From positions 1 to 64,000 of the forward strand of contig NZ_JPYA01000123.1 in assembly GCF_000750005.1 (NCBI RefSeq): a stretch of DNA of 64,000 bases. Direction: 5' to 3'. How positions within the stretch are numbered: position 1 is the first letter of the stretch; the number at the start of each line of letters is the position of its first letter. The position numbers were made by a program, and so were the translations under genes. This DNA comes from Geobacillus icigianus. GTDB taxonomy: Bacteria; Bacillota; Bacilli; Bacillales; Anoxybacillaceae. Below are positions 20,654 to 28,490 of this stretch, piece after piece. The notes under the pieces were generated by a model that saw nothing but the letters and a program-made list of their open reading frames with translations, was not told where the DNA came from and did not search any database.

Positions 20654-23600
20654 ATGAATATAGAACGCATCCGTTTGCTTGTTCAGGAAAAGAAAATCGT
20701 GGACGCTCTCGCCGAAGTGCGGCCGCAGCTAGAAAAAGCCGAACCGTTCGGATGGCGGCCGTTATTGGCGTCATGGGACAGCATTGAACCGTTCCGGGCG
20801 CTCGTCCGGCTGTTTGATTATGCGCTCATGTACCGTCATAGCGGGATTGTGGCCCGCTATGCCCATCGCCGGCTGAACACGCTGCAGACGTTGGCTTGGG
20901 TGTGCGATGAGTGGCTGGACAGCCGGCGGCCGCTCGATGTCGAAGAGGCGCTGGGGCCGCGCCTAGCCGAAGCGTTGGACGGGCGAACCGCTGAGCCGCA
21001 GGAGGCGGTGGCGCGGGCGGCGTTTGTATTCGTGCGCGCGCTGCTCGATATGCAGCGGATTGATGAGGCGCGGGAATGGATGGAGGTGGTGGCCCGCTAT
21101 GAGACGGCGTCCATGCATGATAAATGGGGGTATTTTTATATCGAGGCCGGCGACCGGCAGAAGGCCGAACAAGTGATTCGGGCCGGGCTGGACGATCCGG
21201 AGCGCGGCGACCTATGTCATTTGCTTCTTGCCGATTTGTATGCGCTCGATGGGCGTCATCATGAGGCGCTAGCCGTCTTGGAAGAAGGGCGGCGGCGCTT
21301 TCCGCAAGTGCTGTCGTTTTACGCGGAGCGCGTGCGCCGGCTTCGCGATGTGCGCGCCCACCGTGAGGCGTTGGCGGCGATGGAGGAGCTTGACCGCTTG
21401 AATCCGTTCCATATGCATCGCCGTTATTTCAACCATTTGCGCGCTGAACTGTATTATCAGCTCGGGGAATGGGAGAAGCTGGAGTCGTTGGTGAGCGCCG
21501 TGCCGCAGCTTGAGAAAACGCCGTACGCCCGCGCGGTGGGGAGAACGAACGAGCGGGCGGTCGTGCTGCCGCTTGTTCCGGTCGTGCAAAAGCATAACTA
21601 TTGCGTGCCGGCGAGCGTCGAAATGATGCTTCGCGTCCTTGGCGCTCCGCGGACGCAAGATGAGGTGGCCGAACAGATTTTTGATGTGCGCGGCTCCAAA
21701 TTATCGACGACGGTTCATTATCTCGAAGGGCTTGGATTCGTCTGCCGCTTTTTCATCGGTTCGCCTGCGCGCTGGAAGCGGCTTATTGATGAAGGGATTC
21801 CCGTGCTTTTAAGCGTTGACTATGAGCAGTCGTCCCATGTGCAAGTGCTGTTCGGCTACGATGAGCGGCTTGAGGCGTTTTATGTGCAAGACCCTAACGT
21901 CTTTGAACCGTTTGTGGTTTCGGAAAACGAGCTCGAAAAATGGTACGCGGGAACACATTATTTGTCGATCGTTGCGCTTCCCCGGGAAAAAGCGGCGCTC
22001 GCTATCGAGCTTCCTGACGAGGAGGACCGCTATTTCCGCGCGCTCCACGCTTTTGCCGAAAAAATGGATGAAGATGAACGAGCCCATTTCGCGGCGTTTG
22101 TCGCTTTTTTGCGCCGCCATGAGCACATTCCGTATACATGGCTGTATGTCATGAAACATTTTAGCAGCGACGAGGCGAAACCGCTCGTGTTGGATTATAC
22201 GGAGCGGGTCTTGACCAAGTATCCTGAGCACGACGATTTGCGGCTGGTGGCGGCGAAAGCATACGTGTATGCCCAAGAGATGGAACGGGCGGAACAAGCG
22301 CTCAAGCAGGCAAAAGGAAAAAGCCAAAGCCCGCTCTATCATTACTTGCGCGGCCGCATCGCCTTTTTCGCGAGCCGCTATGAAGAGGCGGCCCGCTATT
22401 TCCGCGCCTCGCTCCAGTTGGATCCAGACCAGCCGGAAGTGTGGAGCTATTTGGCGCTTGCTTTGGCGTATGCCGGCCGTACGGAGCGCGGGCTTGTCTG
22501 TTCACAAGTGGCCGTCCGCTTGTATCCGGGCGATCTGTTTATTGAAACGAATCATGGTGTGCTGCTGTTCCACGCCAAGCGCACGGCTGAGGCGCGCGCC
22601 TGGTTTGACATGCTTGTGCGCCGCGAACGGCGCGATGCCCAGCTTTGGTATGAGCGAGCTCGCTGCGATATGGAGCTTGGCCGCCGGCGCAAGGCGGAGC
22701 GCGGGTTTTACGTAGCTAAGGCGCTCGATCCGCGCGAACCGCATCCATATGGGATGTTAGCCGATTTGTATCATGAAGCCGGTGAGCGTGAAAAGGCGAA
22801 GCAGCTGCTGCAAGAGGGGATTGCCGCCGCCGAACGGCCGGCGCCGCTTTACGTTCGGCTTGGCGATTTCTATATCGATGAAGGGGAAGCGGAAAAAGCG
22901 GCCGCCTGCTACGAGCAGGCGCTGGCTTTGGATGAGGATGACGTGTTCGCCCATCTCGGACTGGCCTCGGCTTTGGCGGAGCGGGGAGAGCGAGAGGCGG
23001 CAAGACGGCGCGTGGCTGAACTATGCACCCGTTTTTCCAACAACAGCGAGTATTGGCTGAATGTGGGCAAGTGGCTGATGGCTTACGGCTTCGCCGATGA
23101 TGAAGAGGGGCGAGCGACGGCGCTCGCATGGCTTGAGGAAGGGCTGCGCCTCGCTCAGTTTGACGTGGAAGAGGCGTACGAGTTTTACATCAGCCAGCTG
23201 ACTACCCCGTCGCTCACAAGACGCGGCCTCCAGTTTTTGGAGAGGCTCGCTGCCGACCGTCCCCGCCTCGCCGCCGCTCGCTGCGCCCTTGGTGTTCTTT
23301 ATGAGCGGCAACATCGGCCGGCTAAGGCTATGGCCGCATACCGCGAGGGCGCTGCCATGGGCCACCCGCTTTCGCTGTTCCGTCTCGCCGAGCTGTGCGC
23401 GTCGCTTGGGCGCGAAAACGAGGCGAAGCAGCATTACGAAGCGTGCCTCGGCGCCGATCCGTCCTTTGCCCTTTGCCATTTTCGGTTGGCTGTGTTATAC
23501 GGAGGGGAAGGAAAGGAAGAAGAGGAGCGCGCCCATTTGCTTCAAGCGGTCCGCCTCGCCCCGCTGCGCGCCGATATCGAATCGATGGCGGCGCTCATCG

Positions 23601-24814
23601 AACCGTCGGCGCTTCTTTCGGCGTTGGCTGACGCCCGCCGGCAGGCTGGGGAGGCGTGGTATTATGACAACCTCGGCTACGTATATGGAGCGCTCGGGCA
23701 GAACGAGCGGGAGAAAGAAGCGGTGGAAAAGGCGCTCTCGCTCGCTCCGCACGATCACGAGGCGCTTCACCATTACGCCAAAGTGATGATAAAGGAAGGA
23801 AAAGCGAAAGAAGCGATGGAGATGCTCGAGTCGTTGATCGTCGAGCAGCCGGGCGATGAATCGCTGTATGTTACTTATCTCGCCCTGTTTCCGAAACATG
23901 GGCGCGGCTTGGCGCAGCTGCGCCGCCGACTGGAGCGTTTGCAGACTGACCGCCAGCGAAAACGCGCGATCTATGTGCGTGCTGCCGCAGCTCTTCTTCC
24001 CTATTGGGAAGAGGAGTTAGGGAGGATGGATGAAATGCCCGGGCGGTGGTGGACGAAAATGAAGGCATGGGTCGGGAAGTTTTCGTTGTTTTCCGCCATT
24101 GTTGATTTGTACGAAGAGGCGATCAGCCTTGACCGCGAAAACCCGGAAGCGTATGCCGAGCTGGCTCGCTTTTATGCGGCGGTTGAACTGGAGGACGATG
24201 CCGCGAAAATGTGGCGCAAGGCGCTGGCGCGCGGCGAGGAGCCTGAATTGGCGCGGGAATTTGTCAAGCATTTGTTGGCGGCTGACGACGTCAATCAACG
24301 TCAAGAGGCGCAAACATGGCTCGATCGGCTGCGCGCCGATGATCCCGATGATGTCGAGCTGCGCGTTTTGCAGGCCATCGTTTGGCTTCAGGACGGGCGG
24401 CAGGAACAAGCCGAACGGCAGTTGCAGGCGATCGTGGCGGAAGAGCCGCTCTCCCGTGGCGCGCTCTTCCTGCTTGCCGAGCGATATGAGGAAACAGGGC
24501 GCTGGCAAGAAGCGACAGCGCTTTGGGAACGATACGCCGATTGGTATTCGGAAGACGGAGAGTGGCATCTGCACCTCGCCGCGATGTACGAAGAAATGGG
24601 GCGTCTCGACAAGGCGCTGGCCGCCATCGACTGGTGCGTTCGTGCCAAGGAAGATGTCCGTCTTCAGTATGAGCGCGCTCGCTATCTTGCTCTGCTTGGG
24701 CGTTTCGATGAAGCGAAGCGGGAACTGGACCGGGTTCTTTCCGACGATGAAAGCGGGGAGTGGGCGGCGCTGGCGGCCGAGGAGCCGGCCTTTCAGCGCA
24801 TGGCTCGGGTGTGA
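20654..24814 (+). CDS. Giant TPR protein with embedded C39-like cysteine peptidase domain
   Basis: A 1386-residue protein with no signal peptide or membrane helix, so probably cytoplasmic. An N-terminal helical and TPR-like region spans residues 1-300. A C39-like papain-fold domain spans about 308-440. Its candidate triad is Cys317 in HNYCVPASVEMML, His395 in SSHVQVLFGYD and Asp413 in VQDPN. Long arrays of TPR units fill about 500-1380, with repeated signatures such as PLYHYLRGRIAFFASRYEEA and YVRLGDFYIDEGEAEKAA. The start follows AAGGAGCTCCG. It stands alone between a terminator and the yidC leader. TPRs suggest a scaffold or binding platform; the peptidase may process or only bind a peptide. 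Substrate and role are unknown. Confidence 0.8.
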   Translation: MNIERIRLLVQEKKIVDALAEVRPQLEKAEPFGWRPLLASWDSIEPFRALVRLFDYALMYRHSGIVARYAHRRLNTLQTLAWVCDEWLDSRRPLDVEEALGPRLAEALDGRTAEPQEAVARAAFVFVRALLDMQRIDEAREWMEVVARYETASMHDKWGYFYIEAGDRQKAEQVIRAGLDDPERGDLCHLLLADLYALDGRHHEALAVLEEGRRRFPQVLSFYAERVRRLRDVRAHREALAAMEELDRLNPFHMHRRYFNHLRAELYYQLGEWEKLESLVSAVPQLEKTPYARAVGRTNERAVVLPLVPVVQKHNYCVPASVEMMLRVLGAPRTQDEVAEQIFDVRGSKLSTTVHYLEGLGFVCRFFIGSPARWKRLIDEGIPVLLSVDYEQSSHVQVLFGYDERLEAFYVQDPNVFEPFVVSENELEKWYAGTHYLSIVALPREKAALAIELPDEEDRYFRALHAFAEKMDEDERAHFAAFVAFLRRHEHIPYTWLYVMKHFSSDEAKPLVLDYTERVLTKYPEHDDLRLVAAKAYVYAQEMERAEQALKQAKGKSQSPLYHYLRGRIAFFASRYEEAARYFRASLQLDPDQPEVWSYLALALAYAGRTERGLVCSQVAVRLYPGDLFIETNHGVLLFHAKRTAEARAWFDMLVRRERRDAQLWYERARCDMELGRRRKAERGFYVAKALDPREPHPYGMLADLYHEAGEREKAKQLLQEGIAAAERPAPLYVRLGDFYIDEGEAEKAAACYEQALALDEDDVFAHLGLASALAERGEREAARRRVAELCTRFSNNSEYWLNVGKWLMAYGFADDEEGRATALAWLEEGLRLAQFDVEEAYEFYISQLTTPSLTRRGLQFLERLAADRPRLAAARCALGVLYERQHRPAKAMAAYREGAAMGHPLSLFRLAELCASLGRENEAKQHYEACLGADPSFALCHFRLAVLYGGEGKEEEERAHLLQAVRLAPLRADIESMAALIEPSALLSALADARRQAGEAWYYDNLGYVYGALGQNEREKEAVEKALSLAPHDHEALHHYAKVMIKEGKAKEAMEMLESLIVEQPGDESLYVTYLALFPKHGRGLAQLRRRLERLQTDRQRKRAIYVRAAAALLPYWEEELGRMDEMPGRWWTKMKAWVGKFSLFSAIVDLYEEAISLDRENPEAYAELARFYAAVELEDDAAKMWRKALARGEEPELAREFVKHLLAADDVNQRQEAQTWLDRLRADDPDDVELRVLQAIVWLQDGRQEQAERQLQAIVAEEPLSRGALFLLAERYEETGRWQEATALWERYADWYSEDGEWHLHLAAMYEEMGRLDKALAAIDWCVRAKEDVRLQYERARYLALLGRFDEAKRELDRVLSDDESGEWAALAAEEPAFQRMARV

Positions 24815-24957
24815 GCGGCGGCCGTGTGAGTAAAGTATTTGTGGTGACGTTCAAGAAGGATCCCCGACGAGGGGGCGAACTTTTGTTTTTCAAACTTTTC
24901 TTTTGCCGAGAAGTTTGCTATTGTGAGAAGAGAGGCTAAGGGAGGTGAACGGGACGG

Positions 24958-25221
24958 ATGGAAGCGCCGATCGAATTATTCGTCTATATGTCGCTTGTCG
25001 GGGCATTGTGGATGATCGTAAAAGGGCATAAGGGCGTGCGTCGGAGAGCCGCTTCACTGTTTTGTGAGCCAATGTTGGCCTCTGTTCGCGAGCAAGGGGC
25101 GAATGGGAGCGCCATGGGCGCGGCGCTTCCATCGCGCCCGCTGTTTTTGCCGCGGCGGCGGAAAATCCCGATGCGGGAACAGGCCAGCCGAACGGATGAA
25201 GATGGAAGGCCCTCTCCTTGA
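24958..25221 (+). CDS. Probable MifM-like regulatory leader peptide upstream of yidC2
   Basis: Encodes 87 residues: one hydrophobic helix (about 5-22), then a basic stretch (KGHKGVRRR) that predicts an N-out, C-in span. A long polar tail rich in Arg ends RTDEDGRPSP. A strong ribosome site, GGGAGGTGA, precedes ATG 24958. Its last three codons and stop form the left arm of a hairpin that hides the yidC2 ribosome site. B. subtilis MifM has this plan: it stalls when YidC insertion activity is low, opens the hairpin and turns on yidC2. I see no clear sequence identity to MifM beyond an acidic DE-rich C-terminus after basic residues. Function is inferred. Confidence 0.6.
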   Translation: MEAPIELFVYMSLVGALWMIVKGHKGVRRRAASLFCEPMLASVREQGANGSAMGAALPSRPLFLPRRRKIPMREQASRTDEDGRPSP

Positions 25222-25257
25222 TGAACGCGCATCATGTTTGGACAAGATCAAGGAGGG
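25212..25257 (+). promoter_or_regulatory. Hairpin sequestering the yidC2 ribosome-binding site
   Basis: CCTCTCCTTGAT (25211-25222) pairs with ATCAAGGAGGG (25247-25257): nine perfect pairs plus G-T and G-C. The right arm contains the AAGGAGGG ribosome site, 7 bases before the yidC2 ATG at 25264. The left arm contains the final codons and stop of the leader. A ribosome paused near the leader end would melt it. Confidence 0.75.
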
Positions 25258-25263
25258 TTTTTT

Positions 25264-26013
25264 ATGAAGAAATGGATCATGATTTTATTGGGCGCTGTTT
25301 TGCTTCTTTCCGGTTGCAGCCGCAACGAACCGATCGACGAACATAGTCAAGGCATTTGGAACCATTATTTTGTCTACCCGATGTCGAAGCTTTTGTTGAC
25401 GCTTGGCCATTGGTTTGGCGACAACTACGGCATCGCCATTATCGTGCTGACGCTTATCGTTCGCTTTTGCTTGCTGCCGCTCATTTTGAAGCAGTTTCGC
25501 GCCTCGCTCGCCATGCAAAAACTGCGTCCGGAATTGTTGAAGCTGCAAGAAAAATATAAAAGCAAAGATCCGGAAACGCAGCGCAAGCTCCAGCAAGAAA
25601 TGATGCAGCTGTATCAAAAACACGGCGTCAACCCGGCGAGCGGCTGCCTGCCGGTGCTCATTCAAATGCCGATTTTTATGGCGCTTTATTATGCGATTTC
25701 GCGGACGCAGGCAATCAAAACCCATTCGTTTTTGTGGGTCGAACTCGGCCATCGCGATCCGTATTTCGTTTTGCCGGTATTGGCGGCGTTGACGACGTTC
25801 ATCTCACTCCGCCTGTCGCCATCGATGACCGAAGAACAACTGCCGCAAATGGCGATGATGTCATACATCATGCCGGTGATGATCTTTATCGGCGCCAGCT
25901 CCGTCCCATCGGCGCTGTCGCTCTATTGGGTCGTCGGGGGCTGCTTCTCGATCATTCAGTCGCTCCTTTTGCGCAGTCAGCTGAAAACGGCGAAAGCGGC
26001 GGAAAACAACTAG
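25264..26013 (+). CDS. yidC: YidC/Oxa1-family membrane protein insertase (YidC2-type)
   Basis: Inserts and folds membrane proteins (249 residues). A lipoprotein signal peptide ends in LLLSGC, so Cys19 should be lipid-anchored. The conserved five-helix core follows, including IIVLTLIVRFCLLPL with the hydrophilic-groove Arg, the coiled region rich in Lys and Gln, GCLPVLIQMPIFMALYYAI and ALSLYWVVGG. I start at ATG 25264, giving a proper signal peptide with AAGGAGGG upstream. Upstream leader and hairpin mark it as the regulated paralogue (B. subtilis YqjG/YidC2); the other copy is not in this window. Confidence 0.93.
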   Translation: MKKWIMILLGAVLLLSGCSRNEPIDEHSQGIWNHYFVYPMSKLLLTLGHWFGDNYGIAIIVLTLIVRFCLLPLILKQFRASLAMQKLRPELLKLQEKYKSKDPETQRKLQQEMMQLYQKHGVNPASGCLPVLIQMPIFMALYYAISRTQAIKTHSFLWVELGHRDPYFVLPVLAALTTFISLRLSPSMTEEQLPQMAMMSYIMPVMIFIGASSVPSALSLYWVVGGCFSIIQSLLLRSQLKTAKAAENN

Positions 26014-26017
26014 CCCG

Positions 26018-26068
26018 CATCCCCTGTTTGCTTTCCAAACCAAAAGCAGGCAGGGGATGTGTTTGTTA
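26018..26068 (+). terminator. Terminator-like hairpin after yidC2
   Basis: CATCCCCTG (26018-26026) and CAGGGGATG (26051-26059) pair perfectly, with an inner TTTGCTTT/AAAAGCA match. The tail is TGTTTGTT, so the T-run is weak. Confidence 0.65.
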
Positions 26069-26081
26069 AATCACCTCCCCT

Positions 26082-26219
26082 CAAGGAGACCGGTGATTTA
26101 AGGGGACAAGCCGCTTATCAAGACCGTTTCTCAAATAGAAAAGCCTTGTCGCATCAGGATTACCTTTCAAACGATCTCCCATTGCTCAAAAGGAACAACC
26201 GTTTTTCACCAGCCTTCTA
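26082..26219 (+). repeat. Intergenic repeat, copy B of the short element
   Basis: Second copy of the 138-base element seen at 11087-11224, same orientation. It shares GGTGATTTAAGG near the left end, AATAGAAAAGCC in the middle and AACAACCGTTTTTCACC plus AGCCTTCTA at the right end. It lies between the yidC2 terminator and the pncA promoter. The left end is the less conserved part. Confidence 0.7.
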
Positions 26220-26308
26220 GAAAATCGCTGCAAAAATGATTCGGACAAAAAAGCCATAAGGGAAGGCTCGATGGACTCGCTCGTTGATGGCTTCTGCTTG
26301 CCCAAATT

Positions 26309-26338
26309 TTGCATGTTGGAGTAGAGTAAAAGTATAGC
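26309..26338 (+). promoter_or_regulatory. Candidate promoter of pncA
   Basis: TTGCAT (26309-26314), an 18-base spacer and TATAGC (26333-26338), about 47 bases before the pncA start. Just upstream AAGCCAT (26251-26257) and ATGGCTT (26287-26293) form a perfect inverted repeat of unknown use. Confidence 0.4.
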
Positions 26339-26384
26339 AGTGCCAATGTACAATGTGATCGACAAATACACGGGAGGGATGTTG

Positions 26385-26936
26385 ATGGAGAGAGCACTGA
26401 TCATCATCGACTACACGGTCGATTTTATCGCCGATGACGGCGCGCTGACATGCGGCAAACCGGGGCAGGCAATCGAGGCCGAACTGGTGCGCGTGACGAA
26501 ACAGTTTATAGATCATGGCGACTTTGTCGTGTTTGCCATTGATCAACATACGGCAGGGGATCGTTACCATCCCGAATCGAAGCTGTTTCCGCCGCACAAC
26601 ATTGAAGGGACAGAAGGCCGAAAGCTGTACGGAGAGCTTGAAGCCGTCTATGAGGCGAACAAGCATAAAGACCATGTGTACTGGATCGACAAAACGCGCT
26701 ACAGCGCATTCGCCGGAACCGATTTGGAGATCAAATTGCGCGAGAGAGGCATTACGGAAGTGCATTTGGTCGGCTGCTGCACCGATATTTGCGTTCTCCA
26801 TACGGCCGTCGATGCCTACAACAAAGGGTTTCGCATCGTCGTTCACCGGCGGGCGGTCGCGAGTTTTGACCCGGCGGGACACGAGTGGGCGCTTCGCCAT
26901 TTTCGCCATACGTTGGGCGCGGAAATAGTGGAATAA
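26385..26936 (+). CDS. pncA: Nicotinamidase
   Basis: Isochorismatase-fold hydrolase of 183 residues that converts nicotinamide to nicotinate for NAD salvage. The catalytic triad is visible: Asp in LIIIDYTVDF, Lys in IDKTRYSAF and Cys in GCCTDICVLHT. The metal-binding stretch DQHTAGDRYHPES is also present. I start at ATG 26385, 6 bases after GGGAGGG; an ATG two codons earlier touches the ribosome site. pncB follows after 81 bases, so both salvage steps sit together as in B. subtilis yueJ-yueK. Confidence 0.92.
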   Translation: MERALIIIDYTVDFIADDGALTCGKPGQAIEAELVRVTKQFIDHGDFVVFAIDQHTAGDRYHPESKLFPPHNIEGTEGRKLYGELEAVYEANKHKDHVYWIDKTRYSAFAGTDLEIKLRERGITEVHLVGCCTDICVLHTAVDAYNKGFRIVVHRRAVASFDPAGHEWALRHFRHTLGAEIVE

Positions 26937-27017
26937 TGGCGAAAACGTGATAGAATAGACGATGAACGTTCTCTTTTGCTGCGGCGCAGTCATTTGTACG
27001 TTGGAGGTTCTGCATTC

Positions 27018-28490
27018 ATGAACGGAAAATATGCCGATGACAGTTTGATGCTTCATACGGACTTATATCAAATCAATATGGTCGAAACGTACTGGGAAGA
27101 CGGGATGCATGAGCGCCGCGCCGTGTTTGAGGTGTTTTTCCGCAAGCTGCCGTTTGGCAACGGCTATGCGGTGTTCGCTGGGTTGGAGCGCGTCATCCAG
27201 TTTTTGCAACAGTTCCGCTTCTCGGCCAGCGACATCGACTATTTGCGGCAAGAACTTGGCTACCGCGACGATTTTTTGGATTATTTGCGGACGCTTCGCT
27301 TCACCGGCACGGTCCGTTCGATGCGCGAAGGGGAAGTGGTGTTTGCCAACGAACCGATCATGCGCATTGAGGCGCCGCTCGCCGAGGCGCAGCTCATTGA
27401 AACGGCCATTTTAAACATCATCAATTTTCAGACGCTCATCGCCACGAAAGCGTCGCGCATTAAGCATATTCTCGGGGACGAACCGGCTTTGGAGTTCGGC
27501 AGCCGGCGGGCGCAGGAGATGGACGCCGCGCTTTGGGGCGCGCGCGCGGCGTACATCGGCGGGATAGAGGCGACATCGAACGTGCGCGCTGGCAAGCTGT
27601 TTGGTATTCCGGTCGCCGGAACGCACGCCCATTCGATGATTCAAGCGTATCACGATGAATACACCGCCTTTTTGAAGTATGCCCGCCGCCATAAAGATTG
27701 CGTTTTTCTTGTCGATACGTATGATACGTTGAAATCGGGAGTGCCCAACGCCATTCGCGTCGCTAAGGAGTTGGGCGACCGAATCAACTTTATCGGCATC
27801 CGCATCGACAGCGGCGACTTGGCCTATTTGTCGAAGGAAGCGCGGAAAATGCTCGATGAAGCCGGATTCCCGAACGCGAAAATTTTTGCCTCAAACGATT
27901 TGGACGAAGATACGATTTTAAACTTGAAGTCGCAAGGGGCGAAAATCGATGTCTGGGGGATCGGCACAAAGCTCATTACCGCGTACGATCAGCCAGCGCT
28001 CGGCGCCGTGTACAAAATGGTGGTGATCGAAAACGAACAAGGGGAAATGGTCGATACGATCAAAATCAGCGGCAATCCGGAAAAAGTGACGACCCCGGGG
28101 TTGAAGCGGGTGTACCGCATCGTCAACAAAATCAACCAGAAAGCGGAAGGCGACTACATCGCCTTAGAGAGCGAAAACCCGCAGCAAGAAGAACGATTGA
28201 AAATGTTTCATCCAGTGTACACATTCATCAGCAAATTCGTCACCAATTTCGAAGCGCGCGATTTGCATGTGACCGTTTTCGACCATGGCAGACTTGTCTA
28301 TACGTCGCCGCCGCTTGCCGACATTCAGGCGTATGCGAAAGAAAGCTTGCGCTTGTTTTGGGAGGAGTACAAACGGACGCTCAATCCCGAGCAATATCCG
28401 GTCGATTTAAGCCAGGCGTGCTGGGACAATAAGATGGAAAACATCCGCAAAGTGAAAGAAGCGGTGGCGCGCATGTCGATGAACGAGTAG
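27018..28490 (+). CDS. pncB: Nicotinate phosphoribosyltransferase
   Basis: Makes nicotinate mononucleotide from nicotinate and PRPP, with ATP hydrolysis (490 residues). N-terminal LHTDLYQINMVETYW and internal ALEFGSRRAQEMDAALWGARAA and HAHSMIQAYHDE regions fit the family; length equals the Bacillus YueK type. ATG 27018 follows TTGGAGG by 10 bases. It takes the nicotinate made by the upstream nicotinamidase. A hairpin about 110 bases downstream probably ends the unit. Confidence 0.94.
   Translation: MNGKYADDSLMLHTDLYQINMVETYWEDGMHERRAVFEVFFRKLPFGNGYAVFAGLERVIQFLQQFRFSASDIDYLRQELGYRDDFLDYLRTLRFTGTVRSMREGEVVFANEPIMRIEAPLAEAQLIETAILNIINFQTLIATKASRIKHILGDEPALEFGSRRAQEMDAALWGARAAYIGGIEATSNVRAGKLFGIPVAGTHAHSMIQAYHDEYTAFLKYARRHKDCVFLVDTYDTLKSGVPNAIRVAKELGDRINFIGIRIDSGDLAYLSKEARKMLDEAGFPNAKIFASNDLDEDTILNLKSQGAKIDVWGIGTKLITAYDQPALGAVYKMVVIENEQGEMVDTIKISGNPEKVTTPGLKRVYRIVNKINQKAEGDYIALESENPQQEERLKMFHPVYTFISKFVTNFEARDLHVTVFDHGRLVYTSPPLADIQAYAKESLRLFWEEYKRTLNPEQYPVDLSQACWDNKMENIRKVKEAVARMSMNE

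Follow-up and report, generated by a model that had tools for sequence, protein, structure and literature searches.

The closest described counterpart of the locus reported here is the MifM system of Bacillus subtilis, in which, according to the available text of the source papers, most ribosome stalls fall on codons 89-92, on and beyond the DEED cluster (PMC6037786), MifM needs the sequence RIxxWIxxxxxMNxxxxDEED (PMC7897499), and residue M90 of uL22 decides stalling (PMC4423224). CliM has been demonstrated to monitor YidC, using a stem-loop (PMC13183943), and its motif is given as KYxIW, that of ApcA as RAPG (PMC10987492). The same survey, in its accessible portion, counts 572 MifM sequences across 592 Firmicutes genomes, with a median of 54 residues from the membrane span to the acids. 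Its class rule asks for a mean charge below -0.3 over five residues in the region 70-100, an N-terminal signal, and a tail of at least 30 residues, and includes a clustering step (PMC10987492). The literature search on MifM in Geobacillus pointed to a single review (PMC9360617) and that on Bacillaceae to another paper (PMC6881298); in the parts available to us of the literature on MifM and yidC arrest peptides, we found no description of the altered, RKIP-type motif presented below.

Here, we analyzed a 64,000-nucleotide stretch of Geobacillus icigianus DNA (contig NZ_JPYA01000123.1, positions 1 to 64,000; hereafter, the window), which carries a short leader open reading frame (ORF) directly upstream of a gene for a second YidC. 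The leader is, with a probability of about 0.82, a strongly diverged MifM that would serve as a sensor of YidC activity, a reading based on a chain of profile matches through the leaders of other Bacillales, with which the YidC2 tree agrees. Most likely, the locus retains the circuit of MifM and has a rewritten arrest motif.

The leader, yidC2, and their neighborhood

The leader and its ribosome site had been proposed originally from the DNA letters, and both were confirmed. The ORF, here called divergent mifM, has 87 codons and an ATG start (24958..25221; all features lie on the + strand), and its ribosome site, GGGAGGTG, can be read ten bases 5' of that ATG (24940..24947). The only hydrophobic stretch of the encoded peptide lies close to its N-terminus, at approximately residues 5-21 (codons 24970..25020, from hydropathy); by eye, acidic residues precede it and KGHKGVRRR comes after. 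Because of these flanking charges and the positive-inside rule, the leader would appear, by eye, to be N-out/C-in, with one N-terminal span and a cytosolic tail. The C-terminal end reads RRRKIPMREQASRTDEDGRPSP, and the presumed arrest motif, RRRKIPMREQASRTDEDGR (residues 66-84, 25153..25209), is marked by residue conservation and dN/dS. Approximately 60 residues separate the span from the acids.

Searches for other identities of this stretch gave little. The leader has no Pfam or NCBIfam family; true Bacillus MifM sequences likewise produced only chance matches below the cut-off, and so the lack of a match carries no information. An Rfam search of 24500-26400 returned no match, and neither the window leader nor a leader from Bacillus pakistanensis matched any of the solved structures, which do include B. 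subtilis MifM (3j9w). Among 21 database relatives, 17 bear a name, which is 'hypothetical protein' in all 17. A scan for sigma-70-like promoters inside the leader found none. A terminator-like site within the leader (25115-25140) was rejected as not above chance, the pattern scan having found four such sites in the stretch where 2.0 ± 1.3 are expected.

The downstream gene, yidC2 (25264..26013), encodes the second YidC/Oxa1-type insertase of the genome (249 aa; Pfam 60KD_IMP, E 4.1e-56; also placed by the tree below), and its ribosome site, AAGGAGGG, can be read at 25250..25257, before the ATG at 25264. The genome has one further YidC gene (G000:C10), located between rnpA-like and jag-like genes, which makes the name yidC2 apt for the window gene; the order around this other copy, which we take to be rnpA, yidC, jag, mnmE, would make it SpoIIIJ. 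The placement is therefore of the MifM type, with a leader directly upstream of yidC2 and a SpoIIIJ-type YidC elsewhere in the genome. Upstream, 20654-24814 encodes a 1386-residue TPR-repeat protein in which residues 310-415 form a peptidase C39-like domain; the gene ends ~140 bases before the leader. Immediately 3' of yidC2 lies a 19-pair terminator-like hairpin (26016..26061), another of the sites from the pattern scan. Farther downstream, at 26340-28490, are a gene for an isochorismatase-family protein and a 504-codon ORF resembling, by eye, nicotinate phosphoribosyltransferase; the two look as if they were a nicotinamide salvage pair.

Conservation in the Geobacillus family

Across 41 genomes of Geobacillus, Parageobacillus, and Anoxybacillus (the Geobacillus family below), the leader was located in 33 by single-sequence search and in 40 by a profile of 26 leaders, and YidC2 was found at no less than 71% identity in 39. 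By coordinates, every one of the 39 family genomes whose YidC2 is uninterrupted has the leader directly upstream of it, and G009, the sole family genome to lack a leader, lacks YidC2 as well. One genome (G022, L004:1740-2900) has an intact leader, 92% identical to that of the window, next to a yidC2 frame that is interrupted after approximately eight codons by DNA coding, by eye, for a TnpB-like (IS200/IS605-type) protein; YidC2 has no match elsewhere in that genome. In another genome, a decayed second leader copy with one internal TGA lies beside a yidC2 fragment (G007:C25:1249-1689), and the intact pair is on C14.

The original prediction had proposed looking for a conserved C-terminus behind a variable middle, and this pattern was found. 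Over nine Geobacillus rows, dN/dS was 0.16 for codons 1-23, 0.45 for codons 24-61, and 0.19 for codons 62-84; by this measure, the span and the C-terminus are conserved and the middle is variable. The conserved C-terminus of the family leaders reads RKIPxRER-x4-DE(E/D)GR. Across 32 distinct leaders, K69 and P71 are invariant (32/32), R68 is present in 31 and E74 in 30, and the spacing from the K to the first acid is 11 in 31; the rows behind these residue counts, like those behind dN/dS, are related and not independent. Residues after the acidic cluster vary; one leader (L027) ends right after DEEGR, and two of the 32 run past the yidC2 start. The codons directly after the acidic cluster (25204-25209) are GGA in 34/34 and AGG in 31/34 family rows, which are again related rather than independent; this GGA-AGG is kept also where it is unpaired in the hairpin, and it resembles the purine tract of a ribosome site.

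A hairpin over the yidC2 ribosome site

The last leader codons and the stop pair with the yidC2 ribosome site, as had been predicted, and do so through two helices. In the minimum-energy fold, a 5' arm made of these codons and the stop (25202..25221) faces a 3' arm that takes in the ribosome site and extends two bases into the yidC2 ATG (25248..25265), an arrangement that recurs in relatives. Eleven pairs join 25202-25212 with 25255-25265, and seven join 25215-25221, which contains the stop codon, with 25248-25254. The fold energy of the whole hairpin is modestly unusual (z = -1.61; 14/200 shuffles fold equally well). Opening six bases of the ribosome site is predicted to cost 14.3 kcal/mol; when the upstream part was shuffled 300 times, the cost was 3.7 ± 2.6 kcal/mol (p = 0.010).

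Among the family rows, the ribosome site was sequestered beyond chance (p < 0.05) in 23 of 31, a set from which L005 is absent (its site, GGGAGG, was missed by the pattern) and in which L035 and L008, identical in that stretch, are each counted. Above the threshold were L040 (0.053), L037 (0.066), L041 (0.070), L039 (0.120), L049 (0.130), L019 (0.223), L042 (0.601), and L018 (0.857). The last two are plain failures, with an opening cost no better than that of shuffles, yet their leader motif is conserved. Outside the family, the site was sequestered beyond chance in 28 of 38 rows, a set defined with L127 and L134 excluded by the acid pattern, L130 without a detected start, and L132, L133, and L148 anchored too far upstream.

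In Geobacillus, the arms pair GGAAGGCCC with GGGCTTTTC, and in Anoxybacillus, CTCCTTGTT with AACAAGGAG. The Parageobacillus arms are GGAGACC and GGTCTCT; there, the leader contains an extra Arg codon, and the bases 3' of the ribosome site differ to match. Given these genus-specific arms, the Leu-Leu-Val that follows the acidic cluster in Anoxybacillus leaders is probably a feature of the RNA. The check proposed originally, which also called for covarying arms, came out mostly positive, the exception being covariation of individual base pairs. Strict covariation, which we do not claim, is weak, because 8 of the 12 pairs never vary: in 14 Anoxybacillus-type rows, both sides changed in 2/12 pairs (97/500 shuffles as high), the covariation score was reached by 11/500 shuffles, and paired cells amounted to 89.3% (33/500). 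The core of the arm is frozen by the ribosome site, while the arms differ between genera.

The growth range of G. icigianus is around 60 °C. The predicted opening cost in the window falls from 14.3 kcal/mol at 37 °C to 9.4 at 60 °C and 7.5 at 65 °C, and the mean predicted for nine Geobacillus rows at 60 °C is 9.7 kcal/mol. These 60 °C values lie near the 10.1 kcal/mol predicted for one Bacillus mifM hairpin at 37 °C, which goes down to 4.5 at 55 °C; a second Bacillus hairpin still costs 9.1 kcal/mol at 55 °C, and we therefore claim no general temperature rule. In two family rows (L038:1697-2071 and L041:1688-2077), the leader ORF has no stop before the ribosome site and, in a frame other than that of yidC2, overruns the start of that gene, as it also does in L120, L131, L133, and L136 outside the family. 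A non-stalling ribosome on such an ORF would also sweep the hairpin.

The presumed arrest motif and its relation to MifM

The B. subtilis consensus RIxxWIxxxxxMNxxxxDEED does not fit the window leader, which has DEDG in place of DEED and neither W-I nor M-N at matching spacing. At the consensus spacing, 13 and 12 residues before the acids, each of the 32 distinct family leaders carries R, K, or Q. When two extra residues are allowed, the position in question is the fourth before the K, where one leader (L043) has Trp and five have Phe; Phe six before the K, present in 27/32, might be a stand-in for Trp. In the interval from 16 to 10 residues ahead of the acids, Trp occurs in 17/30 other Bacillales leaders versus 1/32 of the family; since the remaining 13/30 are also without Trp, the MifM class may be broader than the strict consensus. 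The window leader contains no C-terminal KYxIW, RAPG, or RAPP-like motif, and none was seen in 26 aligned leaders. uL22 retains F85 and M90 and is therefore of the Bacillus kind at those places, whereas the peptide is not. On the charge and tail-length criteria of the class rule alone, the window leader qualifies, with TDEDG at -0.6 (by hand) and a tail of sufficient length; the MifM-like leaders of the family may therefore already be implicit in the 572-sequence set. The thermophile-specific stalling sequence suggested originally survives in a narrower sense, namely, as a motif specific to the Geobacillus, Parageobacillus, and Anoxybacillus rows.

For comparison, Bacillus MifM sequences (L098-L107) were collected by searching 397 genomes for the arrest motif, which PDB 3j9w confirms, and 40 YidC loci of other families were chosen by hand (34 and 6 from two lists). 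A leader-like ORF with an N-terminal span was found at 36 of these 40, in most cases with a C-terminus that is basic and then acidic, e.g., HWINSKVKRKEAPDDDSD. Of the other four, L149 is SpoIIIJ, and L122, L126, and L135, all of family f40, are YidC2 genes with no MifM-type leader ORF upstream. Five leaders, L144-L147 and Priestia endophytica L054, share the form K(K/R)PxKE...D(D/E)ED.

Profiles were compared for 24 of the 34 family loci, with long ORFs trimmed to 95-100 residues. Of the six profile pairs, four had column-shuffle controls; the other two were direct comparisons of low probability. Those two amounted to nothing: the hhalign probability of the family leaders was 1.98 against Bacillus MifM and 3.42 against 32 other Bacillales leaders. 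The K(K/R)P-type leaders against Bacillus MifM gave 16.8, which is within chance (1/100 shuffles as good). A connection emerged in three steps, at each of which 0/100 column shuffles were as good: family leaders matched the five K(K/R)P-type leaders (probability 96.7, 84 columns), these matched the 32 other leaders (91.7), and four Bacillus MifM sequences matched those same 32 (95.2). The original description of the leader as not recognizably MifM thus stands for direct profile comparison and fails once intermediates are used. In an unrooted tree of 54 YidC sequences, the family YidC2 groups with the five K(K/R)P-type YidC2 (95/84), and the seven rows with rnpA upstream, plus four more, fall on one side of a 100/99 branch.

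Alternative explanations

An arrest peptide of separate origin that had converged on the same circuit was part of the original prediction, and such an origin would account for the direct profile comparison of 1.98 and for the departure from the B. subtilis arrest consensus. The three-step chain argues against it, as do the leader-like ORFs at 36/40 of the chosen loci from other families and the grouping of the family YidC2 with that of the nearest leader type, although the tree, being unrooted, leaves room for a separate YidC duplication. With both the leader and YidC2 linked to other Bacillales leader-yidC2 pairs, the proposal of independence is not supported, and we regard convergence as improbable. 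In another reading, the RNA would act alone, the hairpin being a thermosensor or simple coupling device and the peptide non-stalling. In its favor, the peptide varies beyond its acidic cluster and the hairpin is conserved, and the predicted strength of the hairpin in the window drops by 65 °C to 7.5 kcal/mol from the 14.3 of 37 °C. We nevertheless consider this reading very unlikely, since purifying selection acts on the C-terminal part of the peptide (dN/dS 0.19), the invariant residues K69 and P71 (32/32) are encoded upstream of the paired bases, the opening cost is still 9.4 kcal/mol at 60 °C, and the conserved hydrophobic span would be left unexplained.

Slightly less credible still is the view of the leader as an ordinary small membrane protein that has its own function and is translationally coupled to yidC2. 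The conserved span and C-terminus and the strict linkage to yidC2 would suit such a protein; a variable middle, variable residues after the acidic cluster, the two leaders of 32 that overrun the yidC2 start, the end of L027 after DEEGR, and leader 3' codons that double as a hairpin arm would not. The run TTTTTT that comes after the ribosome site in the window could, together with the hairpin, suggest a transcription attenuator. We rejected this possibility almost completely, because only the window has the six T there among 30 aligned rows; moreover, the loop is long, and the hairpin is absent from the terminator-like sites found by the pattern scan.

Proposed mechanism and significance

We return to a diverged MifM as the preferred reading. 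The MifM-type logic of the original prediction holds at the level of sequence, with an anchored leader, a conserved C-terminus, a hairpin over the yidC2 ribosome site, and a SpoIIIJ-type YidC elsewhere, and these features make leader arrest the likely mode of yidC2 control. The span of the leader would be inserted by YidC (SpoIIIJ or YidC2) while the tail is still in the exit tunnel. Insertion would pull the chain, the ribosome would finish, and the hairpin would close over the yidC2 ribosome site. Under slow insertion, RKIPxRER-x4-DE(E/D)G would arrest the ribosome on the acidic cluster or immediately beyond it, the footprint of the stalled ribosome would cover the 5' arm, and the site at 25250-25257 would be freed for YidC2 to be made. 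The window equivalent of the B. subtilis stall codons would be codons 82-85. A ribosome usually reaches ~15 bases ahead of its P site; one stalled there would cover up to approximately 25216-25225, and with it the 5' arm, and leave 25250-25257 free.

As the arrest motif is unlike that of B. subtilis MifM, the tunnel contacts probably differ too. A more specific version, to which we give slightly less than even odds, is that the circuit was inherited and the motif rewritten, so that RKIPxRER-x4-DE(E/D)GR would stall via contacts other than W-I/M-N in a tunnel whose uL22 residues are unchanged, GGA-AGG adding an RNA element. If true, the part of an arrest peptide that touches the ribosome can be exchanged with no change in sensor, target gene, or RNA switch. 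The series of leaders, with Trp, of the K(K/R)P type, and of the RKIP type, would then allow the mapping of exchangeable tunnel contacts, and the Geobacillus leader would offer a YidC sensor that must function at ~60 °C and, with it, a test of RNA-switch strength at that temperature.

Comparison with known systems

B. subtilis MifM (YqzJ), upstream of yidC2/yqjG, has 95 codons versus 87 in the window leader; as far as the available text describes it, the two have in common an N-terminal span, an acidic cluster near residue 80-90, a hairpin over the yidC2 ribosome site, and a downstream second YidC (PMC6037786). They differ in that the window leader has RKIPxRER and no W-I/M-N, and no direct similarity between them is detectable. 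With CliM of Clostridia and ApcA of Actinobacteria, which are arrest peptides upstream of yidC, the window leader shares the regulatory idea. The K(K/R)P-type leaders resemble those of the Geobacillus family in their K-x-P block, a full-length profile match, and a sister YidC2; in these leaders, the gap from the basic block to the acids is two residues shorter, and the cluster ends in Asp, whereas that of the Geobacillus family ends in Gly.
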